Shown piece by piece: positions 31,171 through 48,204 of a DNA stretch of 51,971 nucleotides. A program made the position numbers and the translations under genes. Below the pieces are notes generated by a model. The model saw only the letters and a program-made list of their open reading frames with translations, was not told where the DNA came from and ran no database searches. The stretch's first letter is position 1; each line of letters begins with the position of its first letter. Location of the stretch: the NCBI GenBank assembly GCA_001303955.1, contig LJUP01000006.1:1-51971 (forward strand), read 5' to 3'. The DNA comes from Bacteroides sp. SM23_62. GTDB lineage: Bacteria > Bacteroidota > Bacteroidia > Bacteroidales > SM23-62.

Positions 31171-32331
31171 ATGGCGAAAATTATTGTGCTCGGAACCGGT
31201 CTGATAGGCGGTGCCATGGCAGTGGACCTGGCTTTAAAGCACAATGTCACTGCGCTGGATATTGATACAGCATATTTTGAGCGATTAAACCAAAAAGGGG
31301 TAATAACGAAACAGGCTGATCTGAGCCTGCCCGGTGAAATAGCCGAACAGGTATCAGGATATGACCTGGTGATTGGTGCCCTTCCGGGACATATGGGATT
31401 CCGGACCCTGGAGGAAGTGATTGAAGCAGGTATCAGTATGGTGGATATCTCATTCATGCCAGAGGACTATCTCAGCCTGGATGACCTGGCCATAAAGAAC
31501 AGTGTCACGGCAGTAGTGGACTGTGGTGTCGCCCCGGGAATGGGGAACCTGATCCTGGGGCATCATGACCGACAGATGGAGGTGGATAGCTTCCGGTGTT
31601 ATGTAGGCGGTCTCCCGATAAAGCGCGATTGGCCCTATGGATATAAGGCGGTCTTCTCTCCCATCGATGTCATTGAGGAATATACAAGGCCGGCCCGTTA
31701 TGTAGAGAACCACCGGGTAATCACCCGTGAGGCCCTGTCTGACCTGGAATTGATTGATTTTCAAAACACGGGGACCCTGGAGGCCTGGAATTCCGATGGA
31801 CTTCGTTCCCTGATAACGACCATGGATATACCGAACATGATTGAAAAGACCCTGCGATATCCCGGTACCACGGAATACATCAGGGTACTCCGGGAAACCG
31901 GCTTTTTTTCATATGATGAGGTAAATATCGGTGGCCAGAAGATCAGGCCGATTGATCTTACTGCAAAACTCCTTTTCCCGAAATGGAAACTTCAGGCCGG
32001 GGACCGGGACCTGACCATCATGAAAATCATAATAAGCGGTAAAGAAGATGGAGCAGGCGTGAAGTATACCTATGATCTTTACGATGAATACGATCCGGAA
32101 ACGAAAGTTCATTCCATGGCCCGGACTACAGGATATACCTGTACCGCTGTGGCGGATCTCATACTGTCGGGTAAATTCGACCGCAAGGGTGTTTGTCCCC
32201 CGGAACTGGTGGGACGAAAACCAGGCAGTTTCGAATATGTCCGGGATTACCTGGCCGCAAGAAAGGTGCACTACAAAATGGAAAGGAAGGAAATTCAGCC
32301 TTTACCGTACTCGGAAGGTGCAACACCGTAA
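31171..32331 (+). CDS. Saccharopine dehydrogenase-family NAD(P)-binding protein
   Basis: MAKIIVLGTGLIGGAMAVDLA Rossmann start; GALPGHMGFRTLEEVIEAGISMVDISFMPED; GVAPGMGNLILGH. Confidence 0.85.
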   Translation: MAKIIVLGTGLIGGAMAVDLALKHNVTALDIDTAYFERLNQKGVITKQADLSLPGEIAEQVSGYDLVIGALPGHMGFRTLEEVIEAGISMVDISFMPEDYLSLDDLAIKNSVTAVVDCGVAPGMGNLILGHHDRQMEVDSFRCYVGGLPIKRDWPYGYKAVFSPIDVIEEYTRPARYVENHRVITREALSDLELIDFQNTGTLEAWNSDGLRSLITTMDIPNMIEKTLRYPGTTEYIRVLRETGFFSYDEVNIGGQKIRPIDLTAKLLFPKWKLQAGDRDLTIMKIIISGKEDGAGVKYTYDLYDEYDPETKVHSMARTTGYTCTAVADLILSGKFDRKGVCPPELVGRKPGSFEYVRDYLAARKVHYKMERKEIQPLPYSEGATP

Positions 32332-35024
32332 AGTTCCCGGAAACATTTGGCAAAATACGATGGATGGTTGAATCCCACCTCATAGGTGATCTCTGCCAAG
32401 TTGCCGAAATCGGATTTAATGAGCTGGGCAGCCCGTTTCAGACGGATGGTGCGGATGAATTCGCTGGGGGACTGGTCCGTGAGGGCTTTGATTTTGCGGA
32501 AGAGCTGCATACGGCTCATGGCCAGTTCTGATCCAAGTTGTTCCACACTGAAATCCTGGTCCGACATGTTTTTTTCAATGATATCCAGTGTTTGATTGAT
32601 GAACCTCTCATCTGCCGAGGTAACAGCAATTTCCCGGGGTTCCATTAAAAGTTCCTTGCGGAACCTTTCCCTGAGCTTCCGGCGCTGCTGTATCAGGTTC
32701 TTGATCCTTACGCGCAATTCTTTGATATTGAAAGGCTTTGTGAGATAATCATCCGCCCCGGTTTCGAGTCCCTCAATCCTGTCCTCAACACTCGTCTTCG
32801 CTGTTAACATGATCACTGGAATATGGCTGGTACGCTCGTCTGTTTTCAGCCTGTTACATAATTCCACGCCATCCATCTTCGGCATCATCAGGTCGGTAAT
32901 GACCAGGTCCGGAAGTTGATCAGTAGCGATCTGCAAGCCTGCAACACCATCTGCTGCTTCCATAACATTGTATTCCGCCATGTTTTCGGTAATATGCGTA
33001 CGGATATCCTCATTATCCTCAACCGTAAGGATAATCTGCCTGTCATCGCCCACACGGGAAGGCCGGTCCTTCTTATCCGGTTCAACCTGTGCTTCATATG
33101 ATCTCTCCAAGGTTGGGGATTCCTCTAATATGATATAATCCGAAATATCCAGGTGACTTGTTCCCAGCGGGATTGACAAAAGGAAGCGCGTGCCAAGATT
33201 GACCTTGCTTTCAACCGAAATATCTCCGTGCATAAGATCGATCAGCTCTTTCGTGAGGGAGAGTCCGATCCCTGTCCCAACACTTTCAGTTTCATCCTTT
33301 CCCCTGACCTGGTAAAACCGGTCAAATATCCTGGAAAGTTCATCTTCAGGAATCCCCTTACCTGTATCCCGGACCTCAATCTGAAGGGATGGCAGGCTCT
33401 CATTGCTTTTTTGTTTACGCGAATACTCCCTTTCAACCAGAACGTTAACCGAGACAGTTCCACCATCATCCGTATATTTAATAGCATTGCCAACCAGATT
33501 GGTAAGGATCTTATCCAGCTTATCTGCATCAAAATAGGTAACAAACTCTTCTTCGGGGAATTTTACTGTATAATGGATATTCTTTCTTTCTGCACGGGAT
33601 GTAAACGAGAGCGCAATGATTTTCAGATGGTAGATAACATCCCCCTGGCTCAGTTCAATCTTCAGTTTCCCGGAGTCCAGTTTGGAGAGATCCAGCAACT
33701 GGTTGATCAGTCCCAGGAGCTTATTCACATTCCGTTCCATCAGCTTCAGGGTTCTGGCAGATGGTCTTTTCATCTGCGCATCATCGATCATCTGTTGTAT
33801 GGGATCCAGGATCAGTGTAAGCGGGGTACGCAGTTCGTGGGAGATATTGGAAAACATCCTTGTTTTAAGTTCATCCACCTCTGCGAGCAGGGCATTGGCC
33901 TTTTTCTTCATTCGGTAGTTCCGGTACATATAGAACAGGCTAATCACAACCAGGACAAGTGCGATCATGGTAAAATTACGCAGGAGCTTCGCCCGCTGAA
34001 GATCGACCTCTTTTTGCCGTATCTCTTGGTTGTATTCCCTCTCCCTGGCGTATCTCCTTAATAAAGTGTTTGCCTGCATCTGATTGATGCTGTCATAGAG
34101 GGTCATGTATAATCCGGAATAATGAAGAGCTTTTTCATAATCTCCCATTTTCTTATAGGAATCAGCCATCAATTCAGCATTATCCCTTATTTGTTCCAGG
34201 AAGTTTTCAACCATGGCGATGGTCATGGCTGAATCCAGGTAGGATATTGAAAGACCATATTCTCCGGTGAAATTGTAGTATTTTCCAAATTGCATGTAAG
34301 AATCAACCAACCTGGTATTGTGTCCCAGTTCTTTGCTCAGATCAAGTGCCTGGTGGAAAAAATTATAGGCACTATCCAGTTCATTAAGAAGCAAATAATT
34401 ATCTCCTATGTTCACCAAGGCAGCTATTATGGTACGGTTGACTTCTGCTTTCTTTTCCAGTAAATCCAATGCCTGGAACTGGTATTCTTGCGATTTTGCA
34501 TACTCCCCTTCACTGGCATAGGAAGATCCAATACCCAGGAAAATATGGGGCAGGTATTCTTCATTCCCAATGTCCTGGAAGATCTGATGGGCTTTGTTAT
34601 AATATTCCAGCGCATCGTCATTATCCTCATCCAGCAATATATTCCCAAAGGCAAAGTAAACTTTCGCCAGTAATAACGGATCATCTAATTTCGCAAGTAT
34701 TTCAAGGCTGGCATTCAGGTTTTCAATGGCCGAAGACAATAAACCAAGTTGTCGGTAAATAACACCGCTTGAATAAAGGGCACTGGCCATCCCCGGTATA
34801 TCATCCAGATCCTTTGCTATCTCGTAGCTCTTCAGGGCAAAATAGATGGCTGTATCCGGGTCGGTGGCTTTAAGCTCATCAGTAAGTTCGGTCAGGAGTC
34901 TTAACCTGGTGGTATCTTCTGTTGTTTGGTCAAGGATTACCACCAATGAGTCCACCGAAGGTTGTCCCATTAATGGAAAAATCATACCGAATGTAATGAA
35001 CAGGATGGTGAGGTGCCTTATCAT
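32295..35024 (-). CDS. One-protein hybrid two-component regulator: signal peptide-TPR-TM-HisKA/HATPase-REC-AraC HTH
   Basis: TPR repeats, TM ALVLVVISLFYMY, FSNISHELRTPLTLILDP, DTGKGIPEDELSRIFDRFYQ, TVEDNEDIRTHI..VITDLMMPKMDG, C-terminal AraC HTH. Confidence 0.95.
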   Translation of the reverse strand: MIRHLTILFITFGMIFPLMGQPSVDSLVVILDQTTEDTTRLRLLTELTDELKATDPDTAIYFALKSYEIAKDLDDIPGMASALYSSGVIYRQLGLLSSAIENLNASLEILAKLDDPLLLAKVYFAFGNILLDEDNDDALEYYNKAHQIFQDIGNEEYLPHIFLGIGSSYASEGEYAKSQEYQFQALDLLEKKAEVNRTIIAALVNIGDNYLLLNELDSAYNFFHQALDLSKELGHNTRLVDSYMQFGKYYNFTGEYGLSISYLDSAMTIAMVENFLEQIRDNAELMADSYKKMGDYEKALHYSGLYMTLYDSINQMQANTLLRRYAREREYNQEIRQKEVDLQRAKLLRNFTMIALVLVVISLFYMYRNYRMKKKANALLAEVDELKTRMFSNISHELRTPLTLILDPIQQMIDDAQMKRPSARTLKLMERNVNKLLGLINQLLDLSKLDSGKLKIELSQGDVIYHLKIIALSFTSRAERKNIHYTVKFPEEEFVTYFDADKLDKILTNLVGNAIKYTDDGGTVSVNVLVEREYSRKQKSNESLPSLQIEVRDTGKGIPEDELSRIFDRFYQVRGKDETESVGTGIGLSLTKELIDLMHGDISVESKVNLGTRFLLSIPLGTSHLDISDYIILEESPTLERSYEAQVEPDKKDRPSRVGDDRQIILTVEDNEDIRTHITENMAEYNVMEAADGVAGLQIATDQLPDLVITDLMMPKMDGVELCNRLKTDERTSHIPVIMLTAKTSVEDRIEGLETGADDYLTKPFNIKELRVRIKNLIQQRRKLRERFRKELLMEPREIAVTSADERFINQTLDIIEKNMSDQDFSVEQLGSELAMSRMQLFRKIKALTDQSPSEFIRTIRLKRAAQLIKSDFGNLAEITYEVGFNHPSYFAKCFRELYGVAPSEYGKG

Positions 35025-35040
35025 TAATGGTTTTGACTAT

Positions 35041-37056
35041 TTAATGGCTTTTTTCAATCTCAACCAATCCCCAACGAATCATTTTTCCAAGGATCTTCCG
35101 GGTCAGGTCTTCCCCTAAAATTACAACATTTTTCCGGATGAATTCATCCACCGTCGATTCCTTTAAGTCCCTGTAAGCCTGGAAATGTGCACCGGGAACC
35201 TTGAACAATCTTGACATCCGGTGTGAAACAGGCAGCACAATATAATGAAAGCGGCCTTTACGGAATTTTGCTTTTCCTTTCAGGCCAATGGGGTCATGCA
35301 TATAATCAAAAATATAACAGCTGGTTTCAACCAATTTCCAGTATGGCAGCGGCCTGATAATGTCTTTCGGATCCGGCCTTTTCATTTCCGCCTGATGATT
35401 TCGTCTGGCCGCTTCAGATAATTGCCAGCGCTCATATTTGGCAATCATGAATGCTTTGGTGAAATCTACCTGGAACACATCCCAGGCATTTGTTGGTAAT
35501 CCCCTGTCAATCAGATGCTCAAGATATTTCTTCAGGCTGTCTGTCAGAAAATACAGTTCCGGCAGCGGGGTATCTTGCCCATACTGGTAACGATCAAGGT
35601 CATTTTCTATTAACTCCACAAAATCACTATCCTTTAAAGCTTGCCGGATATGTTCCCTGATCAGCACCAGCGTAGGCAGGAAATGTTCAATGTTATTCAC
35701 AAGATCAGCCAGGAATAAATATGTCCGGCGTGAAATATGATCATTGGGCAAATAGTAAAAGGAGCTGAAAGTATTCCTGTCACTTTTTATCAGGTTCCTC
35801 ATTTTTTCAGTGGGGTACATTACTGAAAAACCTGAATGGACATCATCATATTCAAGTTGCCCGACATGTCGTTGATATATGGGTGTTCCCGGAAGGATGG
35901 AAAGCAGGGTGAGCTGGGGCCTTGCACCGGCCAGCGCTACCTCTATCACAGATCTTAAGGTATCGTTAAGATCCTTCCTGGTCTCACCCGGGAATCCTGC
36001 CATATAGGAGACTATGGTGGTGATCCCCAGGGCCGTTGAATGCCTGATCATCCTGATGGCTATTCCAAGGTCCAGGTTTTTCCTGATCTCCTTTTGTATC
36101 CTGTCAGATCCGGATTCAATTCCGAAAAAGATGGCCCTGCATCCGCTCTCGTTCATCTCCTCCAGCATTTGTTCAGTCACACAATCTGTCCGGGCAGAAC
36201 AGGTCCAGGTAAATGGAGCTTCCGAAATCTTGTTGCGTGATATCAGTTGCCGTGAAAAATCAGCCATAAATGCTTTGTCAAGTGTAAACATATCATGGGA
36301 AATTCCCATTCTGTCGATGCCCAGTTCCTGATGGCAGTATTCCATTTCGGCTATGATCCTGCCGGGAGATTTTACGCGGTACCTCTTTGAGAAGAACTGG
36401 TTGGTGGTACAGTAGGTACAGGAGTATGGACAACCCCTACCCGCATCAATGCGTACCTTACTTTTCTTAAAAATCCTCTCATAAGCTGGGACGGGCAGCT
36501 TATCAAGGTCTCTCACCCTATCACCCGGGGAGCCCGGATTCACCTCATTGGTCAGGCGATCCCTGTAAACAAGACCCGGTATGGATGCTGCCTCTGCCTC
36601 ATTCCCATCCAATAGCCAGGATATCAGCCCGGGCAATGTATGATCCGCCTCTCCTTTCAGGATGAAATCTATGGCGGGATATTTTGCCAGGATATCCTCG
36701 GCCAGGACGGAAGCCTGGGGACCGCCAAAAATAACAGGGATAGCCGGATCCATCCGTTTAATCTCCTCAGCCAGCAGCAGGGAAATAGGAAATGAATCAC
36801 ACCAGGTGGAAAAACCTATTGCCCCCGGGTTATGAGACAGGATATCTTCTGCCACTTTAGGGAGGTCCCTGTCATTTGCAATCAACATTTCAGGCTTGTA
36901 GATGGCAGCCCTGAAACCGGATTGCCCAAGAGTGCTCAGAAGGACGAGCAATCCTACGGGGATAAAATCGACGGCCTGGTCTGTTGATACAGGATTTATT
37001 ACGGGTGGGATCAGGAGTATATGAATTCCAGTATCCTGCAATCTGGATTTGCCCAA
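35041..37056 (-). CDS. B12-binding-domain radical SAM protein
   Basis: Cobalamin-binding-like N-terminus (GFSTWCDSFPISLLLAEEIKRMDPAIPVIFGGPQAS); radical SAM cluster GRGCPYSCTYCTT. Confidence 0.92.
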   Translation of the reverse strand: MGKSRLQDTGIHILLIPPVINPVSTDQAVDFIPVGLLVLLSTLGQSGFRAAIYKPEMLIANDRDLPKVAEDILSHNPGAIGFSTWCDSFPISLLLAEEIKRMDPAIPVIFGGPQASVLAEDILAKYPAIDFILKGEADHTLPGLISWLLDGNEAEAASIPGLVYRDRLTNEVNPGSPGDRVRDLDKLPVPAYERIFKKSKVRIDAGRGCPYSCTYCTTNQFFSKRYRVKSPGRIIAEMEYCHQELGIDRMGISHDMFTLDKAFMADFSRQLISRNKISEAPFTWTCSARTDCVTEQMLEEMNESGCRAIFFGIESGSDRIQKEIRKNLDLGIAIRMIRHSTALGITTIVSYMAGFPGETRKDLNDTLRSVIEVALAGARPQLTLLSILPGTPIYQRHVGQLEYDDVHSGFSVMYPTEKMRNLIKSDRNTFSSFYYLPNDHISRRTYLFLADLVNNIEHFLPTLVLIREHIRQALKDSDFVELIENDLDRYQYGQDTPLPELYFLTDSLKKYLEHLIDRGLPTNAWDVFQVDFTKAFMIAKYERWQLSEAARRNHQAEMKRPDPKDIIRPLPYWKLVETSCYIFDYMHDPIGLKGKAKFRKGRFHYIVLPVSHRMSRLFKVPGAHFQAYRDLKESTVDEFIRKNVVILGEDLTRKILGKMIRWGLVEIEKSH

Positions 37057-37107: not shown

Positions 37108-37422
37108 TCATATACCTTCCATCCTGTGTACGTCCCCTTCAATATCCTCCACTTGCTTATTATGGGGATTTGTCTGTTTATCAGCTATTAATATACGAAC
37201 CTCATGATCCGGATCAATACCGGGTCCCCAGTACACGTTTATTTCACTCTTGATTACTCCCAGTAACTCATTAATCCTTTTAAGGGCAGCCTCTCTATCC
37301 TTGTTGCGGTCCTCAGCTATGGTGGTGGGCGGGGTGATTTTCTCCCAGTCATCTTTTAATCCAAAGAGTTTTCCTTGTTTTTCACGCAGAAGCTCAAATG
37401 GAGTTTTTTCGTTCGCGGCCAT
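37108..37422 (-). CDS. Small hypothetical protein (104 aa)
   Basis: ORF MAANEKTPFELLREKQGKLFGLKDDWEK...; no recognised family. Confidence 0.6.
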   Translation of the reverse strand: MAANEKTPFELLREKQGKLFGLKDDWEKITPPTTIAEDRNKDREAALKRINELLGVIKSEINVYWGPGIDPDHEVRILIADKQTNPHNKQVEDIEGDVHRMEGI

Positions 37423-37551: not shown

Positions 37552-37725
37552 TCAGTACTGTATCACGGCCTTCTCTAATTCTTCATCCTGAATAGTATTG
37601 TATGGAATTTGCGCTCCGGCACTTGAAGTGAAAACAGTGATAAAACGCAGTCAAGCAGGAAGTTTTAATATGCATATCCATTGATATGCGCATGGAATTC
37701 CCTTTGAAAATGATGTGGTTTTCAT
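37552..37725 (-). pseudogene. Small ORF with internal TGA, downstream of element A
   Basis: Minus frame: MKTTSFSKGIPCAYQWICILKLPA*LRFITVFTSSAGAQIPYNTIQDEELEKAVIQY*. Same frame throughout; internal stop at 37651-37653; MKT start as in the 47525 and 48024 genes. Confidence 0.4.
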
Positions 37726-37772: not shown

Positions 37773-37838
37773 TAAAATTACGACAACTTAAGGGGTGGTA
37801 TCTAGCAGGGAGGTAACAAAGATTGATTAAATTGTAAC
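37773..37838 (-). promoter_or_regulatory. Copy A of the 38-bp tandem-half-site element (37801-37838) with -7-like box TAATTTTA (37773-37780)
   Basis: Plus-strand TCTAGCAGGGAGGTAACAAAGATTGATTAAATTGTAAC; 20-bp gap to the minus-strand TAATTTTA. Confidence 0.6.
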
Positions 37839-37955: not shown

Positions 37956-38020
37956 TAAAATTATGCCATATACAGTAAAATGTCTACCAATTATGTATCC
38001 TATGTTGCCAGGTATGTAAC
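37956..38020 (-). promoter_or_regulatory. Copy D of the 38-bp element (37983-38020) with -7-like box TAATTTTA (37956-37963)
   Basis: Plus-strand TCTACCAATTATGTATCCTATGTTGCCAGGTATGTAAC; 19-bp gap to TAATTTTA on minus. Confidence 0.55.
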
Positions 38021-38030
38021 AGGAAGCTGG

Positions 38031-40244
38031 TCAGGCTTTGGCATACTCTGAGGGGGAAACACCATAGAGTTCCCTGAAGCATTTTGCAAAGTAGGACAGA
38101 TTATTGAATCCCACTTCGTAGGTGATCTCTGCCACATTGCCAAATTTCTTCTGGAGCAGCTGGGCAGCCCGTTTCAATCTGATCGTACGGATGAATTCAC
38201 TGGGGGTCTGATTGGTCAATGCCTTCAACTTTCTGAACAACTGCATACGGCTCATCCCTATCTCCCCTGTCATGGCTGTAACATCGAAATCACAGTCACC
38301 GAGGTTATCTTCAATGATCTGGATGGCTTTGTTCAGGAACCTCTCATCAACAGAAGTAACGGCGATGTCACTGGGACTGAGATCTGTTTCCTTGCTGAAC
38401 CTTTCACGCAACAGCTTTCGCTGTTCGATCAGATTCTTCAAGCGGGTTTGCAATTCCTGCATGTTAAAGGGTTTGGTCATATAGGCATCTGCCCCGGTTT
38501 CAAGTCCCTCAATCCTGCTTTCCACCGTCGCCTTGGCAGTCAACATGATCACAGGTATATGGCTGGTCCGTTCATCGGTTTTCAACCTCCTGCAAAGTTC
38601 CACCCCATCCATCCTGGGCATCATCAGATCGGTAATGATGAGGTCCGGTATGGTTTCAGTTGCCAGGGATAATCCCTCCTCCCCGTCGACAGCTTCCTGC
38701 ATGCTGAATTGATCTTCGAGGTTGTCAAGTAAATGTGCCCTGACATCTTCGCTATCCTCCACTACCAGGATCTTTGCTTTTCCATCCTTCTCTTCAATGC
38801 CACCATCTTCTGTTTGCCGGTTTTCATACCCTCCTGATACCAGGACCACGTTTGCCACACTGGCATCTTCCAGGTCTTCTTTCTCCCCGATCAGGTATTC
38901 ATGCTTGTCCAGGTGTTCCTTCCCCAGCGGAATCACGATCGTGAAAGAACTCCCCTTGCCTTCAGCAGATTCCACCTTGATCTGACCATGCTGGAGTCCC
39001 ACCAGCTCCCGTGTCAGTGAAAGGCCTATGCCGGTCCCCCCACTGCTTTGCTGCCATGATCCCTCTACCTGGTAGAAACGGTCAAATATCTTATCCACCA
39101 GTTCAGCGGGTATACCCGGACCGGAATCGGATATCCGGATGTTCAGAAAATCCTGGTCTTTGTTCTTTCCCCTGGATTCAATCTTTATCTGGCAGTCTAC
39201 CTCTCCTTCTTCGGGTGTGTATTTAAAGGCATTCGACAACAGATTTGTCAGTATTTTTTCAAGCTTATCCGTATCATAATAAGTGATGTAACCCTTCTCT
39301 GGAATATGGACGTTATATTGAATGTTTTTCCTTTCTGCCAGCGGTTGAAAACTAGAGGTGATCAGGCGGCTGAAACGCAGGATATCCGATTCGTTCATTT
39401 CCAGTTTCATGCTGCCGGCATCCAGTTTCGAAAGGTCAAGCAGCTGGTTTATCAGTCCCAAGAGCCTGACTGCGTTCCTGTGCATCCTTTCCATGGTAAC
39501 CCGGTTTTTTTCTGTCAGGTCCTCTTTGGAAAGGATGTCTTCCAGCGGCCCTATAATCAATGTAAGGGGGGTCCGGAACTCATGAGAGACATTGGAAAAG
39601 AACCTTGTCTTCATCTGATCCATCTCCATGATCTGAAGATTCTTTTGTTCGAGTTCAGCGGTACGCTCCTTAACCTTGTCCTCCAGTCCCAGTCTCATTC
39701 TCTCCAGTTCCGTTACCGAATCATATGCCCGGAGGCTTGCCAGCACAAGGGTAAACAGTTTAAAGGCAGTCAGCTCGGTTTTCGTCTTGTAATCATTGAT
39801 CTCATAGGAAACAATCACTTCCCGCTCGGGGGCATATCCGGGATATCCGGTGCGAAGAATGATCTGGGTGTACTTGAGGTTCACCTCATCACGAATGAAC
39901 TTTACCAGATCCAGTCCCGCCGTATTTGTCTCCATCACAACATCCAGCAGGATCACCGCAATATCCGGATTATTCCTGAGCAGCGGTTTGGATGCTTCAG
40001 CAGAATGTGCATGAATAAATTCAATTCCCCGGTCCCTGTAGGTAAAACCTTTCAGGGCAATGCGTGTCACACTGTGAATGTCTTCCTCGTCATCTACTAC
40101 CATGACTTTCCAGGGCGGACAGGAAAATTCAGGCTGCGAAATCTCCTTTTCAAAGATTTCTGGAGCTGCGTCTGAGAACAGCTGTTCATCATCGTCTTTC
40201 AGCTCTTTATCTTCAAATAATTTCTCATTCTGATCAAGATCCAT
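38031..40244 (-). CDS. Soluble REC-HisKA-HATPase-REC-AraC hybrid regulator
   Basis: VMVVDDEEDIHSVTRIALKGF...ILLDVVMET; FFSNVSHEFRTPLTLIIGPLEDIL; ISDSGPGIPAELVDKIFDRFYQ; VVEDSEDVRAHLL..IITDLMMPRMDG; AraC HTH C-terminus. No TM segment. Confidence 0.95.
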   Translation of the reverse strand: MDLDQNEKLFEDKELKDDDEQLFSDAAPEIFEKEISQPEFSCPPWKVMVVDDEEDIHSVTRIALKGFTYRDRGIEFIHAHSAEASKPLLRNNPDIAVILLDVVMETNTAGLDLVKFIRDEVNLKYTQIILRTGYPGYAPEREVIVSYEINDYKTKTELTAFKLFTLVLASLRAYDSVTELERMRLGLEDKVKERTAELEQKNLQIMEMDQMKTRFFSNVSHEFRTPLTLIIGPLEDILSKEDLTEKNRVTMERMHRNAVRLLGLINQLLDLSKLDAGSMKLEMNESDILRFSRLITSSFQPLAERKNIQYNVHIPEKGYITYYDTDKLEKILTNLLSNAFKYTPEEGEVDCQIKIESRGKNKDQDFLNIRISDSGPGIPAELVDKIFDRFYQVEGSWQQSSGGTGIGLSLTRELVGLQHGQIKVESAEGKGSSFTIVIPLGKEHLDKHEYLIGEKEDLEDASVANVVLVSGGYENRQTEDGGIEEKDGKAKILVVEDSEDVRAHLLDNLEDQFSMQEAVDGEEGLSLATETIPDLIITDLMMPRMDGVELCRRLKTDERTSHIPVIMLTAKATVESRIEGLETGADAYMTKPFNMQELQTRLKNLIEQRKLLRERFSKETDLSPSDIAVTSVDERFLNKAIQIIEDNLGDCDFDVTAMTGEIGMSRMQLFRKLKALTNQTPSEFIRTIRLKRAAQLLQKKFGNVAEITYEVGFNNLSYFAKCFRELYGVSPSEYAKA

Positions 40245-40282: not shown

Positions 40283-41614
40283 CTATTTGCCAAGTGGTAC
40301 AGCCAGATGAACCCGGGTTCCCTTTCCCGGTTTTGACGTGATATGGATATTTACACCTGTCAATTTACAAAATTCTTTGGTCAGCGTGAGTCCCAGTCCA
40401 AGTCCATGCCCGTTTGCACCATTGGCAAGTTCCCTTTTAAAGGGATAATACATTTCTTTCTGGAAAGAAGGCGATATACCTCTCCCGGTGTCAGATACTA
40501 TGATCTTCAATACCTTATCCTGGTCATGGCTGACCTTTATCTCTATATGTCCTTCCTTTGTGTTTTTAACCGCATTGTCAATTACATTTGACAGGATCTG
40601 GCTGAAAGCATATTCATCAATCAATATTATGTCTGTGGATGCCATGTTCTCGACCACAAGGTCAATCCCGTTTTTATGAACAGCATACTCCTCATCAGCT
40701 AAAATATCGCGGATGGTATCAGACACTGAGATTTTTTCCCGTTTTAGCTCATAATTGTCTGCCTGGATTTCGGACAGGTCATTGATCATCTGGACCGCCC
40801 GGATGATTTCCTTCCCCGAGTAATTCATATCATCAAACAGTTGCCTGATATTCTCATTTACCTGGTCTTTAACCTCCTTCCTGATAGTGTCTGATGAATC
40901 GAGGATCAGGTTTAAGGGGCCCTGGATTCTTTCTGACATTTCATGCAGGAAAACTGATTTCTGCTGTTCTGCTTTTTCTGCTTTTTGCTTTGCATGCATC
41001 AGGGCTTTCTCCTTGCGTATGCGGCGCTTGATCTCTAATTTGAATTCTTCATTCAACCTGCCGATCTGCTGGATCGCCTCGTAGGCCCTCAGGCTGGCAA
41101 GTGCAACTGTAAAGAGCTTGAAAGATGTTAATTCTGTTTTGGTTTTGTAATCATTTATTTCATAGGATACAATTACCTCTCTTTCCGGAGCCTGTCCGGG
41201 TTGTCCGGTGCGTATGATGATCTGGGTCACCTTGTTGCCTAGTTTATCGCGGATGATTTTAACAAGGTCGAGGCCCGCGTTGGTTGTCTCCATCACCACA
41301 TCAAGCAGGATGAGGGCTGTATCGGGATGTTCCTTCAGTATCTTTTCTGCTTCGGCGGCCGAGTAGGCATCATAGAACTCCACTGGTTTTCCCCTGAATG
41401 TAAATCCTTTAAGGGCAATGCGTGTTACACTGTGAATATCTTCCTCATCATCTACAATAAGGATCTTCCATTTTTCCAATGACTCATCTTCTTTCCTGCC
41501 AATTTCAACCAATTCTGACTCCTGTTCTGTCAGGAACAGTTCGTCGGAATCGTCCTCCTGTCCTGGAGTGTCGGCAAACAGGTCTTCGTAATTTTTGAAT
41601 TTGTCCATAACCAT
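40283..41614 (-). CDS. REC domain-HATPase protein with degenerate dimerisation/His box
   Basis: REC closely similar to that of 38031-40244; ATP lid motifs NVIDNAVKNT, DTGRGIS, GHGLGLGLTLTKEF; H-box replaced by FLHEMSERIQGPLNLIL. Confidence 0.9.
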   Translation of the reverse strand: MVMDKFKNYEDLFADTPGQEDDSDELFLTEQESELVEIGRKEDESLEKWKILIVDDEEDIHSVTRIALKGFTFRGKPVEFYDAYSAAEAEKILKEHPDTALILLDVVMETTNAGLDLVKIIRDKLGNKVTQIIIRTGQPGQAPEREVIVSYEINDYKTKTELTSFKLFTVALASLRAYEAIQQIGRLNEEFKLEIKRRIRKEKALMHAKQKAEKAEQQKSVFLHEMSERIQGPLNLILDSSDTIRKEVKDQVNENIRQLFDDMNYSGKEIIRAVQMINDLSEIQADNYELKREKISVSDTIRDILADEEYAVHKNGIDLVVENMASTDIILIDEYAFSQILSNVIDNAVKNTKEGHIEIKVSHDQDKVLKIIVSDTGRGISPSFQKEMYYPFKRELANGANGHGLGLGLTLTKEFCKLTGVNIHITSKPGKGTRVHLAVPLGK

Positions 41615-41618
41615 TGTT

Positions 41619-41683
41619 TAAAAATACATTATCCCGACAATGATGGCTACTATTTATGTAACAGTCTCTGACATTATGGTAAC
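41619..41683 (-). promoter_or_regulatory. Copy E of the 38-bp element (41646-41683) with -7-like box TATTTTTA (41619-41626)
   Basis: Plus-strand GCTACTATTTATGTAACAGTCTCTGACATTATGGTAAC; 19-bp gap; between the 41674-44280 and 40283-41614 genes. Confidence 0.55.
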
Positions 41684-44280
41684 TTAATCAGGAATTGCAT
41701 CCCTTTTCCCTGTTCGCTGGAACAACTGATACGTCCATTCAACCGCTGGGTAACCAGATTGTATACGATGTGCATTCCTAATCCTGTGCCAACTTTTTTA
41801 TCGGTAGTAAAAAACGGTTCGAATATTCTATCCATGAGTTCCGGTCCGATCCCTTTCCCATCATCAGCGTATTCCAATATGATTTCTTTTTTTTCACGCC
41901 TGGCAGTCAGCCTGATACTGCCCTGATCCTTTCCCTCAAATCCATGTACCAGGCTATTGAGTATCAGGTTGGTCAGGATCTGGGAATAGGCCCCGGGATA
42001 ACTGTTCAATTCAAGTTTTTCATCAATGTCCAGGCTGATGTCAATCTTTTTCCCTTTCAGACGGGGATAAAGACTCCTGATAACATCTTCCGAATATTCC
42101 TTCAGCTTGAAATTCCGCTGCTGTTCGGTGGACTGGTCTACAGATACCTGTTTAAAGCTCTGCACCATGGTGGCCGTTCTTTCCATATTGGACAGGATCA
42201 GTTTGGCAGCCTGGCTGGCGGTATTCAGGTAATCTTTGAATTCTGCGCGGGAGATCCTGTCCGTCTTATAGTGATCAGCCATCCTTTTCGTCTCTTCTAC
42301 CAGGCTTGAAGCTGCTGTTACACTGATCCCGACAGGTGTATTGATCTCATGGGCGACTCCTGCCACCAGTCCACCAAGGGCCGCCAGTTTTTCCGACTGG
42401 ATCAGCTGCAACTGGGTATCCCTTAAATTCTCAAGTGTGATCTTGAGCTCTTCGATATGTTGTTCCAGCAGATTGTTTTTTTCAGAGATCTGCTGATTCA
42501 ATGTTGATATCATACGGTTTTCGCTGCGTTTCTGGATAAAGGCATTCACGACCAGTCCCAGCACAATCAACACGAGTACAACTCCACCCATCAGCATGAT
42601 CCTCCATGTTTTCTGCTGTTCCAGCTCCAGTCTTTGTTTCTCAAGGTTTGCCTCCTGGATATCGATCTGATGCTGTTTCGCTTCGCTCTGGTATTTTTGT
42701 TCGAGCTCCTGAAGTTGTTTGATCTTCTGCTCATTATAGATACTATCATGCACTTTGCTGAACTCCACGTGATACCTGTATGCTTCACGGTAGTTCCCGG
42801 TCTCCGCGGATAATTCGGACAAACTTGCCAGTGCCCTGCGCGTCATTTCCTTGTCCTGTATCTCCCGGGCAATTTCCAGGCTTTGGGTAAAATACGTTTT
42901 GGATGCAGCCTTGTTTCCCAACCTTGAATACACGATCCCTATCTTGAATAATGCGTGTGCCTTTTCACTTTGATCACCGGTTTCTTCGCAGACTGCCAGG
43001 GCCCTGTTGAGGTATTGGAGTGAAGCCTGGTATTTTTCCTGATTGGAGTAAATTGTCCCGATGTTATTCAGGGCATTGGCCAGACCGGTTTTTGTACCGA
43101 GGGATTCCCTGATGGCCAGGGCGCTTTTATAGTTTTGCAGTGCTTCATCGATTTTGCCCAGGTGCTCATATGCAGAACCTATATTATTCAGGGAGGTTGC
43201 CACTTTTAAATTTACCTTCAACTTTTCATAGATCACCATGGATTCTGTATAGTACCCTATCGCCGCATTGTAATCCCCATTGTACGCATTTGCGATGCCG
43301 AGTGACTGGTAGGAATCCGCTACCAACTTTTCATCATTGATCTCTTTTCCGACCGCCACAGCCCGTTGCGCGTAATCCATGGCGGTTGCATATTCACTCA
43401 GGTTATTATATACAATGGCAATATTGCTCAATGCCCTGCCAATAATGCTTTTACTCCCCATTGATTCTGCCAGTTCCAGGGCTTGCCGGTAGATTTCCAG
43501 TGCCTTCGGGTAGTCACCCATATCATCATAAATAGCACCCAGTGTATTCAATGAATAACTCATGTTTAGCTTGTCATCCAGTTCCGCTGACAACTCATAT
43601 GATTCCCTGAAATATTTAATTGCGAGATCCATCTGTCCCCATCCCCGGTAAACCTCTCCCATGCTGTTTATCACCCGCGCTGTAACTGATTTGTTCCCTG
43701 ATTCCTTTGCCACTGCCAGGGCCTCCTCAAAAACGCTTATGGCTTTCTCAGCATCCCCCTGTATATTGTATACCCAGCCCATCATGTTCAATCCGCCTGC
43801 CAGGCCTGCTTTATAACCTGCTTCCTCATAGAGGGCATTGGCTTTTCCAAGATGCTCCATGACCTCCTGGTAGGTTCCCTGCTTGAATTGAATAACGCCC
43901 AGATAATAATAGCCGTTTGCCACGGATTTCTTATCCCCCAGGCTTTGATAAATCTGAATGGCTTCCCGGGCATTGCTGAGAGCTAGTTGCCATTCACCAA
44001 ACTGGTAGTGCACATTGGCTAAACTGTTCAGCGAATTTGCCCTCCCCTCGGCAAATTGAATTTCCTTTGAAAGTTCCAGTGCCCGGTTGGCATATTGAAG
44101 TGCCTTGTCTTTATCGCCGTAGGAATGTTCAACGGAAAGTTCATTCAATAACCTTACCCGGATAGTATCTTCCTTTACCATGAACAGTTCGTTGTGCAGA
44201 CTGTCAATCTTTTCCATATCCTGGGGAAAGGTCCCCGTAAAAATCACACAAAGAAAAACTGCCGTTAGAATAAATCTCAT
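41674..44280 (-). CDS. TPR-repeat transmembrane sensor histidine kinase
   Basis: Signal peptide, many TPRs, TM IMLMGGVVLVLIVLGLVVNAFI, LIQSEKLAALGGLVAGVAHEINTPVGIS, YADDGKGIGPELMDRIFEPFFTTDKKVGTGLGMHIVYNLV. Confidence 0.95.
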   Translation of the reverse strand: MRFILTAVFLCVIFTGTFPQDMEKIDSLHNELFMVKEDTIRVRLLNELSVEHSYGDKDKALQYANRALELSKEIQFAEGRANSLNSLANVHYQFGEWQLALSNAREAIQIYQSLGDKKSVANGYYYLGVIQFKQGTYQEVMEHLGKANALYEEAGYKAGLAGGLNMMGWVYNIQGDAEKAISVFEEALAVAKESGNKSVTARVINSMGEVYRGWGQMDLAIKYFRESYELSAELDDKLNMSYSLNTLGAIYDDMGDYPKALEIYRQALELAESMGSKSIIGRALSNIAIVYNNLSEYATAMDYAQRAVAVGKEINDEKLVADSYQSLGIANAYNGDYNAAIGYYTESMVIYEKLKVNLKVATSLNNIGSAYEHLGKIDEALQNYKSALAIRESLGTKTGLANALNNIGTIYSNQEKYQASLQYLNRALAVCEETGDQSEKAHALFKIGIVYSRLGNKAASKTYFTQSLEIAREIQDKEMTRRALASLSELSAETGNYREAYRYHVEFSKVHDSIYNEQKIKQLQELEQKYQSEAKQHQIDIQEANLEKQRLELEQQKTWRIMLMGGVVLVLIVLGLVVNAFIQKRSENRMISTLNQQISEKNNLLEQHIEELKITLENLRDTQLQLIQSEKLAALGGLVAGVAHEINTPVGISVTAASSLVEETKRMADHYKTDRISRAEFKDYLNTASQAAKLILSNMERTATMVQSFKQVSVDQSTEQQRNFKLKEYSEDVIRSLYPRLKGKKIDISLDIDEKLELNSYPGAYSQILTNLILNSLVHGFEGKDQGSIRLTARREKKEIILEYADDGKGIGPELMDRIFEPFFTTDKKVGTGLGMHIVYNLVTQRLNGRISCSSEQGKGMQFLIKLP

Positions 44281-44295
44281 TTGATTGATATATTA

Positions 44296-46938
44296 TTATT
44301 GGACCGGAATATTCATCCTAAAAGATACGCCTTTTTCTTTTTCACTGCTGCAGGTAATAGATCCATTCAGCCTCTGGTTTACGATATTGTAAACAATATG
44401 CAGTCCCAGGCCGGTTCCGGCCTTTTTATTGGTCGTAAAGAACGGGTCAAACACCTTGTCAATATGCTTCTCAGGTATGCCTTTCCCATTATCATGGTAG
44501 GCAAGCATCAGTTCCTTCCTGTTAACCTGTGCCGCAATGGTTATGGTCCCCTGCTTCATATCTTCAAAACCATGAACAACGCTATTGAGCACAAGGTTGG
44601 TCAGGATCTGGGAAAAGGCCCCCGGATAACTGTTTAACTCTATCTTTTCATCTATCTCCAGAATGATTTCAACCTTCTTCCCCTTGATACGGGGATACAG
44701 GCTGCGAATTACATCCTCAGTATATTCCTTCAACTTGAATTTACGCTGCTGCTCGGTGGACTGGTCCACCGATACCTGCTTGAAACTCTGGACCATGGTG
44801 GCTGTTCTTTCCATGTTGGCCAGGATTAGTTTTGCAGACTGGTTGGCTGTATTCAGATATTCCTTGAAGGCGGCTCTGGATATTTTATGGGATACATATT
44901 GTGCTGCCATTCTGCTGGTCTCTTCTGGCAGGCTGGAAGCAGCAGTTACACTTATGCCAACCGGTGTGTTTATTTCATGGGCCACCCCTGCTACCAGTCC
45001 CCCGAGTGCAGCCAGTTTCTCAGACTGTATCAATTGCTCCTGGGTGTTTTTAAGATGATCCAGGGTTATCTGAAGCTCTTCCTTCTGTTGTTCGATCTCA
45101 TCCTTCTGGGCTTCAATCTCCTCCTTTTGTTGGGAGATATATGCATTTTTTTCCTGCAGGGCTATATTCGCCTTTTGTTTCTGCCGGTAACTCCGGAGAA
45201 TCAAGGCAGCGATGATAATCATCAGTATAAAAGCACCGATAAAGGCATTCCTTACCAGTTGTTGTTTTTTAACTTCTGCGGCGTGCAGTTCTTCTCTTTT
45301 CAGGTTCTCGAGTTCCATGACCTGCTTCTCCTTTTCAAATTGATACCGGTTTTCCCTGGCTGTGATATCCCGTATATTCTCAGCATTCAACAGGCTGTCA
45401 CTTAATGTCTTGAAAATAACATGATATTCGTATGCCTGCTGGTAATATCCTTTGGCTGCATAAGATCCAGCTAGGGTTTCTGCAGCATCTCTCATAGCTT
45501 CCTTCACCCCTGCCTCACTGCCACGCTTATATCCCTTCAAGCCATAAGCAAGGGCTTTATTATATTCATTCATTTTCAGGTAGACATTACCCATGTGTGC
45601 ATGAAGCAGCGCAATTCTGCGTATACTTCCTATTTCTTCAGCAATCCTTAAAGCCTCCTCGTAAATATCGAGTGCAGCAGGATAATTTTCCTGCCGGAAA
45701 TTGACCATACCAATATTCAACAGACAGATCACAATCTGGGTCTTATCACCGCTTTCCCTGAATATTTCCAGGGCATTCCGGTAATTATCAAGTGCCCTGG
45801 AATAATCTTCTTTGTCAAGATTCACATTTCCAAGTCCGATGAATGTGCCTGCCATAGGGCCTTTTTCACCCAGCTCTTTACGTATTGCCAGGGCCTGCTC
45901 GTAATAATTCAGTGCCCTGGCGGTGTCATCCATTTTATAATAAATATTCCCAATATTATGATAACATAATCCCAGCCTGGATCTCTCACCGAGCTTCTCA
46001 CGATAGTCACATGTTTTAAAATATAATTCCAATGCCCTGGGATAGTCTCCCTGGTGCTCATAGATCAATCCGATATTATTCAGGCAATCTGCTACCGTGC
46101 TGCTATCGCCCAATGACTCACGGATTCCCAGGGATTTTTGGAAATATTCAATAGCCTTCGGATAATTGCCCAAATCCAAATGTACGATTCCGATATAATT
46201 ATAGGCCGCGGCCATCTGGATGCTGTCATCCAGCTGCTCAAATGTTTCCAGTGCATATTGATGGTTGGTAAGCGCCTGGGTGTATTCCCCCTGGTTGCAT
46301 AGATTCCATCCGATCGAATTATAGCAATCGGCCAGTCCCTTCCGGTCACCGGTTGCTTCATACAGGTCCAGCAATTTATAATAATAATCCAGTGCCTGTG
46401 GAAAGTTCCCACGCCGGTTATAGATAAATCCAAGGTAACTGTAACTCTCCTTCAGTCCGATTGTATCCCTGATCTGCTCTCTTATTTTCAGCGCTTCATG
46501 ATAGTATTCCAGGGACAGATGATAGTCCTGCAGTTTGAACAGGCAGTATCCCAGGACTTGGTATCCACCTGCAGCAGCTTTTTGATCTCCCAGGTCTTCA
46601 TACATGTCAATGGATTGCTGGATATTATTCCTTGCCTGCCTGTAGTTTTCCCGGGCCACATTCAGGTTTGCCAGGTGATTGTAATAATCAGCGATTCCCT
46701 TGTTATATCCTGATTTTCTTGACAACCTGAATGCCCGGTTCGCAAAATCCCTGGCCAGGGAGGTATCACTGTTAATATATGCAATAAATAACTGGTTGAG
46801 AAGGTCAATTTTAACAGTATCGGATTTTGCCTTTCTGATTAATTTTTCCAGGCTGTCGACCTTGACCTGATCCTGGGTAAAGACCTGGATAGTCATGAGG
46901 AGGAAGCAAAGAAACAGGGGAATCCGGACTTTGATCAT
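44296..46938 (-). CDS. TPR-repeat transmembrane sensor histidine kinase (paralogue of the next gene)
   Basis: Likely start MIKVRIPLFLCFLL at 46938 (ORF opens 46992); TPRs, TM AFIGAFILMIIIAALIL, AGVAHEINTPVGISVTAASSL, HDNGKGIPEKHIDKVFDPFFTTNKKAGTGLGLHIVYNIV. Confidence 0.95.
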   Translation of the reverse strand: MIKVRIPLFLCFLLMTIQVFTQDQVKVDSLEKLIRKAKSDTVKIDLLNQLFIAYINSDTSLARDFANRAFRLSRKSGYNKGIADYYNHLANLNVARENYRQARNNIQQSIDMYEDLGDQKAAAGGYQVLGYCLFKLQDYHLSLEYYHEALKIREQIRDTIGLKESYSYLGFIYNRRGNFPQALDYYYKLLDLYEATGDRKGLADCYNSIGWNLCNQGEYTQALTNHQYALETFEQLDDSIQMAAAYNYIGIVHLDLGNYPKAIEYFQKSLGIRESLGDSSTVADCLNNIGLIYEHQGDYPRALELYFKTCDYREKLGERSRLGLCYHNIGNIYYKMDDTARALNYYEQALAIRKELGEKGPMAGTFIGLGNVNLDKEDYSRALDNYRNALEIFRESGDKTQIVICLLNIGMVNFRQENYPAALDIYEEALRIAEEIGSIRRIALLHAHMGNVYLKMNEYNKALAYGLKGYKRGSEAGVKEAMRDAAETLAGSYAAKGYYQQAYEYHVIFKTLSDSLLNAENIRDITARENRYQFEKEKQVMELENLKREELHAAEVKKQQLVRNAFIGAFILMIIIAALILRSYRQKQKANIALQEKNAYISQQKEEIEAQKDEIEQQKEELQITLDHLKNTQEQLIQSEKLAALGGLVAGVAHEINTPVGISVTAASSLPEETSRMAAQYVSHKISRAAFKEYLNTANQSAKLILANMERTATMVQSFKQVSVDQSTEQQRKFKLKEYTEDVIRSLYPRIKGKKVEIILEIDEKIELNSYPGAFSQILTNLVLNSVVHGFEDMKQGTITIAAQVNRKELMLAYHDNGKGIPEKHIDKVFDPFFTTNKKAGTGLGLHIVYNIVNQRLNGSITCSSEKEKGVSFRMNIPVQ

Positions 46939-47121: not shown

Positions 47122-47186
47122 TAAACTTACGACAAGAGGGTATTCAAATCTAACAGGTATGTAACGTCGATTGACAGATATGTAAC
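47122..47186 (-). promoter_or_regulatory. Copy B of the 38-bp element (47149-47186) with -7-like box TAAGTTTA (47122-47129)
   Basis: Plus-strand TCTAACAGGTATGTAACGTCGATTGACAGATATGTAAC: two 17-bp half-sites at 21-bp period matching at 13/17 positions; 19-bp gap to the -7-like box; upstream of the 44296-46938 kinase. Confidence 0.7.
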
Positions 47187-47315: not shown

Positions 47316-47525
47316 TTACTCCTGCGCCGGTTGGGAATACTGGATACCTTGTAGTGTTTCAGCCAGGATTTCACAGTCCACATTTCCTGTGGAGAGCGCT
47401 GCCGTTTTCCCGGTATGCTCGGTAAGGCAGTTCAGTGCGCAAATGGCGGCAATCAATACCAGGTAAATGACCAGTCTCAAGGGACTTGGAAAAGCATCTA
47501 TAGACCTAGACTTTGTGGTTTTCAT
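47316..47525 (-). CDS. Small membrane or secreted protein (69 aa)
   Basis: MKTTKSRSIDAFPSPLRLVIYLVLIAAICALNCLTEHTG...; N-terminus resembles the neighbouring 150-aa protein; followed by a terminator. Confidence 0.6.
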   Translation of the reverse strand: MKTTKSRSIDAFPSPLRLVIYLVLIAAICALNCLTEHTGKTAALSTGNVDCEILAETLQGIQYSQPAQE

Positions 47526-47571: not shown

Positions 47572-48024
47572 TTACCTACGTGCCAGCATCCTGGCGGCAC
47601 ATTCCCATCTGCAGTTACTGACCATCCAGCATTCCAGGGGGAAATCCTGTTCGGCTTCTACAACCAGGCACCTTTGCTCGAAGTTGATCATCCAGGGCTC
47701 TAAGCTGATCTCCGATTCCCCGGTTCCGGCCACATGGTCATGGCTGAAGGAAAGCATCCAGGGTTCTACATTAATCTCAGGCTCCTCATTTTCAGCCAGG
47801 TATCCGTTTTCGAAATCCATCATCCAATCCTGAAGCTGGATGGCAGGTTCTTCTTCATCTGCCAGGGCAATGACCAGCTGGCTGTAAAAGTTATCTGCCT
47901 TCCTGGTGGTCTGGGCATTAAGGGCTACCCAGTTGAGGAAACACAGTACCACGACAGCACATATATATAAAGAAAATCTGCCTGGCCTGGGGAAATCTCC
48001 GGTGGTTTGGTGTGCAGTTTTCAT
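47572..48024 (-). CDS. Secreted protein with four 22-aa 'WM' repeats
   Basis: Signal-like RFSLYICAVVVLCFLNWVALNAQ; WM dipeptides at residues 67, 89, 111 and 133 in repeats such as EEPEINVEPWMLSFSHDHVAGT. Confidence 0.75.
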   Translation of the reverse strand: MKTAHQTTGDFPRPGRFSLYICAVVVLCFLNWVALNAQTTRKADNFYSQLVIALADEEEPAIQLQDWMMDFENGYLAENEEPEINVEPWMLSFSHDHVAGTGESEISLEPWMINFEQRCLVVEAEQDFPLECWMVSNCRWECAARMLARR

Positions 48025-48086
48025 TTTTTGGTTCTCCTATTTTTAATTTATTGCCTTCGGTTTTTGATTACTCGGACTTTCTGATA

Positions 48087-48152
48087 CAAATTTACAACAC
48101 CGCACCGCCCGGAATCTAACAGTACTGTAACCAAGATTGCCAAATATGTAAC
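48087..48152 (-). promoter_or_regulatory. Copy C of the 38-bp element (48115-48152) with -7 box TAAATTTG (48087-48094)
   Basis: Plus-strand TCTAACAGTACTGTAACCAAGATTGCCAAATATGTAAC; 20-bp gap to a perfect TAnnTTTG on minus; upstream of the WM-repeat gene. Confidence 0.7.
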
Positions 48153-48166
48153 CCCTGAAATTTTGT

Positions 48167-48204
48167 TATCCCAGACAGGTAACATTTATTGATACATATG
48201 TATC
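48167..48204 (-). promoter_or_regulatory. Copy F, degenerate version of the 38-bp element
   Basis: Plus-strand TATCCCAGACAGGTAACATTTATTGATACATATGTATC keeps the spacing but with weaker boxes. Confidence 0.35.

Follow-up and report, generated by a model that had tools for sequence, protein, structure and literature searches.

The window analyzed here is the whole stretch of 51,971 nucleotides at positions 1 to 51,971 of contig LJUP01000006.1 of Bacteroides sp. SM23_62. On its minus strand, it carries a gene for a small protein with tandem units built around a Trp-Met (WM) pair, next to genes for TPR-containing sensor proteins and a radical SAM (rSAM) enzyme. The features on which the following account relies are listed below.

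48165..48204, minus strand: second, weaker copy of the direct-repeat element (22 bits)
48116..48152, minus strand: HTCS-type element (HTCS, AraC-type hybrid two-component system) with a 21-bp distance between its two half-sites, lying 87 bp ahead of the WM start (37.0 bits; architecture as in PMC3878776)
47572..48024, minus strand: WM-repeat protein of the FPxP branch, 150 aa (ORF translation; paralogues and relatives; coding constraint)
47902..47985, minus strand: hydrophobic helix, residues 14–41, with an FPRPGR motif before it (AlphaFold; conserved N-terminus)
47788..47853, minus strand: WM unit 1, EEPAIQLQDWMMDFENGYLAEN
47722..47787, minus strand: WM unit 2, EEPEINVEPWMLSFSHDHVAGT
47656..47721, minus strand: WM unit 3, GESEISLEPWMINFEQRCLVVE
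47590..47655, minus strand: WM unit 4, degenerate, AEQDFPLECWMVSNCRWECAAR
47316..47525, minus strand: 69-aa protein that lacks WM units but has the FPxP N-terminus, encoded 46 bp beyond the WM gene
47150..47186, minus strand: element copy with the highest score (40.5 bits), ahead of the operon of the TPR kinases
44296..46938, minus strand: TPR sensor histidine kinase
41674..44280, minus strand: TPR sensor histidine kinase; among PDB entries, designed TPR, Pins/LGN and kinesin light chain come nearest to its TPR part
40283..41614, minus strand: receiver and histidine kinase (RR-HK) protein, with a homologue of 56% identity beside a WM gene in G770
38031..40244, minus strand: receiver-HK-receiver-AraC hybrid regulator
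37984..38020, minus strand: element copy
37802..37838, minus strand: element copy that precedes the broken FPxP gene
37552..37725, minus strand: broken FPxP small-protein gene, whose intact G002 counterpart has one WM unit
37108..37422, minus strand: small protein of 104 aa, encoded immediately ahead of the rSAM gene
35041..37056, minus strand: B12-binding radical SAM protein; ApyD is the NCBIfam model nearest to it, with 328 of the 750 bits required
32295..35024, minus strand: TPR hybrid two-component regulator (TPR, HK, receiver, AraC), kept with the rSAM gene in relatives
WM-unit peptide: EEPEINVEPWMLSF

The 150-residue translation of 47572..48024 agrees with that given in the initial annotation, and WM falls, as reported there, at residues 67, 89, 111, and 133; at least four WM pairs arise in only 1 of 200,000 shuffles of residues 39–150. 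The four 22-residue repeats had been described as exact, which is true of their length and register but not of their sequence, the pairwise identity being 5–8 of 22 residues, with unit 4 the most degenerate. The hydrophobic segment ahead of these units starts with a conserved FPxP stretch of 12–15 residues, and AlphaFold returns a confident helix over residues 14–41 (block pLDDT up to 92), with disorder C-terminal to it. The proposed signal-like N-terminus ending in ALNAQ is therefore borne out insofar as a strong hydrophobic helix is present; the ALNAQ end would suit cleavage and thus a signal peptide, but the segment opens with the conserved FPxP stretch, and residues 14–41 are either a signal peptide or a membrane anchor. 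For the WM proteins modelled, AlphaFold gives low pLDDT over the repeats and a pTM of 0.17–0.22 from shallow alignments; with a deeper alignment of a Prolixibacteraceae branch, the predicted fold amounts to one-turn helices at each WM, as would be expected of a linear-motif array.

The degeneracy of unit 4 and the broken neighboring FPxP gene could be taken to mean that the repeats are accidents of a chance open reading frame or a decayed gene; however, the existence of paralogues and relatives, dN/dS values below 1, and conserved motif positions refute this explanation, which retains a practically negligible probability. The window coding sequence is judged to be real because its relatives show dN/dS of 0.18–0.52 and a Shine-Dalgarno-like AGGAG lies upstream of it; purifying selection is likewise judged to act on WM relatives. 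Shine-Dalgarno-like AGGAG(G) is uncommon in Bacteroidota, and it occurs at many FPxP genes (window 48000-48040, as well as L032, L033, L034, L275, and L310). The broken FPxP gene (37552..37725) shows an early stop and a frameshift when compared with the intact G002 copy (L271 7072-7494), and a strong element is still found upstream of it.

No family had been recognized for the window protein, which is correct for the databases: the protein and other WM members score above no curated cut-off in Pfam or NCBIfam, the PDB holds no solved structure related to WM proteins by sequence, and a literature search on the WM motif returned none. A large natural family nevertheless exists. Searching the genome contigs with the single window protein as the query gave no match; paralogues in the same genome lie on contigs C253 (two), C277, C323, and C69, of which those on C253 and C277 are homologous to the window protein beyond the motif (E about 1e-12 or better). 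A profile built from nine members found relatives in 49 of 394 Bacteroidales genomes and 25 of 206 genera, and a broad profile (A3) applied to a class-level sample matched only the own genome, from which the family appears confined to the order, although this profile is weak. In a second search, a DNA pattern of three successive ExWM units was scanned over GTDB genomes, and the named members include Draconibacterium, Mangrovibacterium, Mariniphaga, Maribellus, Sunxiuqinia, Prolixibacter, Carboxylicivirga, Plebeiobacterium, and others. Pattern matches outside Bacteroidota (Jettenia, Moorena, Mycobacterium, and others) either lacked the family's unit or belonged to other repeats and were rejected; one contig of a Chitinophaga-labelled MAG (L148) holds a true WM member.

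The resulting set contains 118 non-redundant proteins with 416 units, at 2–8 units each, and its unit consensus reads E-x-x-L-x-[LIV]-E-x-W-M-[TL]-[DN]-x3-[FW], with spacings mostly of 17–28. WM-repeat proteins are defined by an export or anchor segment followed by at least two units of the form E..[LIV].[LIV]E.WM, and the window protein has this arrangement. Judging from these sequences, WM-repeat proteins are a large, undescribed family found nearly entirely in Bacteroidales. In several WM proteins (L091, L092, L095, and L098), ..LE.WMF forms the very C-terminus, and its final aromatic residue recalls outer-membrane or PDZ signals.

Within this set, nine WM proteins, including that of the window, share the FPxP (or LPxP) N-terminus followed by a hydrophobic stretch. 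The same N-terminus occurs in other proteins, for example, the 69-aa neighbor, whose gene probably belongs to the same operon as the window WM gene, a one-WM protein in G001 and G002, and 370-aa proteins in G770. In two genes that each have their own element (L275 10297-11418 and L310 4001-5119), it is fused to a 330-residue domain without a Pfam match, CotH-like by eye.

The elements reported upstream of the window WM gene are real, as a pattern modelled on the copies gives 2 matches against 0.00 expected by chance; the copy had been called the best of its kind, and it is indeed strong but not quite the best, at 37.0 bits compared with 40.5 bits at 47150..47186. In each element, a site like TACATATCTGTTAGA occurs twice in the same orientation at a spacing of 21 bp, and the element lies 48–141 bp upstream of FPxP-type start codons. 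It precedes 8 of the 9 FPxP WM genes and none of the 64 other WM genes (Fisher p 7e-10, with relatedness ignored and with several of the eight sites also used to build the element model); the C277 paralogue (L009) has the FPxP N-terminus but no element. The sequence model was derived from 15 sites and recovered the C253 sites that a strict IUPAC pattern had missed. Mapped over the genome, strong copies occur at the window cluster, the C253 WM pair, and a few further loci, the strongest being at the window system. In the HTCS sites described in the literature, the direct repeats average 21 bp (PMC3878776), and AraC-type HTCS genes are common to the element-bearing loci considered here. Near its promoter, the window WM gene likewise has direct repeats in tandem, spaced by about 21 bp and shared with the HTCS locus, as a member of an HTCS regulon is expected to have. 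In three genomes, an HTCS-type element also lies between a gene for a DUF4382-like lipoprotein and an ORF of 83–96 aa with a T9SS-like tail, both labelled by eye (L306 7963, L307 8959, and L308 6369).

Both TPR histidine kinases said to lie just downstream of the WM gene are confirmed. The further proposal that the WM protein is an effector, ligand, or partner of these kinases finds a conserved linkage in the FPxP branch (G001, G002, G003, and G770) but none in the family at large. In these four genomes, the last a distant Bacteroidota MAG, an FPxP small protein is found in company with a TPR-HTCS, an ApyD-like rSAM, and the element. The cluster of G001 and G002 comprises TPR-HK, TPR-HK, RR-HK, HTCS, element, FPxP protein, small ORF, and rSAM, its TPR-HTCS being seen in G002; the G003 locus consists of WM, a 65-aa ORF, rSAM, and TPR-HTCS with two elements; and the G770 locus holds a 69-aa ORF, rSAM, TPR-HTCS (rSAM and TPR-HTCS at 39–45% identity), the element, and a four-WM FPxP protein. 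A second G770 contig carries an RR-HK with an element ahead of it, a protein with four WM, and a further FPxP protein, and in G004 the end of an HTCS adjoins a one-WM protein. An RND efflux operon (MFP, pump, and TolC-like, labelled by eye) stands beside the WM/HTCS locus in G003 (L034 8673-10202) and G004 (L037 2580-8511).

Because an HTCS-type element lies upstream and the linkage to a TPR-HTCS is conserved, the window WM gene is probably a direct transcriptional target of the adjacent sensor system. The promoter would thus offer its 21-bp direct-repeat site to the adjacent AraC-type hybrid regulator or regulators, a choice of regulator deduced from linkage, and the WM gene would be an output of the TPR sensor system. 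This transcriptional link is the best-supported step of the mechanism proposed here.

The neighboring B12 rSAM enzyme raises another explanation, namely that the WM units form a multi-core peptide whose Trp or Met residues this enzyme modifies ahead of export, possibly to yield a signal. The rSAM gene is rare (6 of 394 genomes), and an FPxP small protein accompanies it in 5 of 7 rSAM loci, G770 included, while it is absent in G561 and the G721 locus ends at a contig edge; moreover, the nearest model, ApyD, is an enzyme that acts on a peptide, methylating a Tyr at its beta carbon (PMC10635010). However, the window enzyme scores below the ApyD cut-off, its C-terminal 200 residues are unmatched, and most WM genes have no rSAM or other RiPP modifying enzyme nearby. 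Furthermore, the rSAM gene has a small ORF of its own immediately ahead of it, which is a better candidate peptide precursor than the WM protein, and for these last two reasons modification of the WM units is considered improbable. Such an ORF, of 65–104 aa (139 aa in L274), precedes each ApyD-like rSAM gene with a complete upstream side, the sequences being mostly dissimilar (window 37108-37422; L034 7362-7556; L271 7572-7775; L273 329-523; and L275 9274-9480).

The composition of the units, with one Trp, one Met, and acidic residues in each, could also suggest binding of a metal such as Cu(I), or scavenging of oxidants, in the periplasm. This function is very unlikely: no recurring metal-handling genes were found in WM neighborhoods across the family, and the conserved L at −3, [LIV] at −1, and [FW] at +9 indicate a protein-binding motif instead.

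Units of the FPxP branch often read EPEIxIExWM, and [ED]PE precedes the WM core in 12 of 27 FPxP-branch units as opposed to 15 of 463 units elsewhere, an enrichment that stems from few related lineages. LGN binds Glu-X-Glu peptides, with Glu-Pro-Glu in NuMA (PMC3438535), and kinesin light chain (KLC) binds W-acidic peptides in which Trp is flanked by acids (PMC6214655). Since TPR relatives bind such Glu-Pro-Glu or Trp-acidic motifs and FPxP units often carry EPE, it is plausible by analogy that the WM units dock on the LGN/KLC-like TPR domains in the periplasm.

The window gene product would be an exported, probably inner-membrane-anchored protein, largely disordered in the cell if the model holds, that displays four acidic Trp-Met linear motifs outside the cytoplasm. 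Most likely, the units would be multivalent motifs that dock on a solenoid-type receptor, in this case presumably the periplasmic TPR domains of the same system; once docked, the WM protein would report back on, or hold, its own sensors, whereas other branches of the family would serve other receptors.

The main rival to docking is that the WM protein is an output only, an envelope or stress-adaptation protein with another periplasmic or outer-membrane partner, and that this branch has merely been placed under TPR-HTCS control. Co-occurrence with sensor kinases fails as a family trait, since the neighborhood survey found most members without a sensor kinase nearby; hence, the kinase link is not a property of the family and TPR docking not its general role. 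Order-wide, WM genes stand alone in unrelated places, and some of their slots, such as that beside rsmI, are common to different families. In 18 of 69 named Prolixibacteraceae WM genes, padR follows directly, and then PspC-domain and DUF4252 genes, which suggests envelope functions for this branch; a WM gene heads such a padR - pspC-domain - DUF4252 operon in L170 (824-4053), L253, L263, and others. The same element may also control other genes, e.g., the DUF4382-like lipoprotein/T9SS-tail pair. Two-component adjacency within 17-kb stretches was left out as evidence owing to the commonness of such genes, and a non-FPxP WM gene (L109) that is followed by a TPR kinase at 279 bp was judged to be within chance. 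The output-only explanation is a real possibility, held at appreciably below even confidence; it leaves unexplained both the EPE enrichment in the TPR-linked branch and a tight sensor linkage that is conserved out to a distant MAG.

Overall, the tentatively preferred reading, which itself falls somewhat short of an even chance, is that of an exported WM-motif protein that is an HTCS output and docks on its own TPR sensors to provide feedback. A fuller circuit, in which a TPR hybrid sensor controls, and is gated by, exported tandem Trp-Met docking proteins, possibly with an rSAM-modified peptide as a second ligand, is rather doubtful; if true, it would be a bacterial extracytoplasmic counterpart of TPR/linear-motif switches. 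What is new is a wide, undescribed secreted repeat family in cultured marine Bacteroidales (Draconibacterium, Mangrovibacterium, Carboxylicivirga, Prolixibacter, and others), of which the FPxP branch now has a promoter element and a cognate sensor system. Two questions thereby become testable: what Bacteroidota perceive through their periplasmic TPR sensors, and whether HTCS control extends beyond polysaccharide use.

Several known systems can be compared with that of the window. The Porphyromonas FimS-type TPR histidine kinase (NF053520) is alike in its periplasmic TPR, membrane segment, and kinase; however, the window kinases score 183 and 214 bits against a cut-off of 600 and are not FimS by the equivalog test. 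FimS is not known to have a WM partner. The AraC-type HTCS of Bacteroides is alike in its receiver/HK/AraC architecture and in the two tandem sites 21 bp apart before adjacent targets (PMC3878776), but the window sensor differs in being a TPR solenoid, and the putative targets are small exported WM/FPxP proteins, kinases, and the rSAM gene rather than polysaccharide-utilisation genes. ApyD, of aminopyruvatide biosynthesis, resembles the window rSAM in the B12-binding and radical SAM region, although the score is 328 of 750 bits and the rest of the apy cluster (MNIO, P450, and methyltransferase) does not adjoin the window gene. Lastly, the window TPR is related in sequence to the TPR domains of LGN/Pins and kinesin light chain, whose ligands are likewise short acidic Trp-containing linear motifs on disordered chains; these systems are eukaryotic and cytoplasmic, however, and their motifs share with the WM units only EPE, E, and W. 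Docking at the window system is proposed by analogy.
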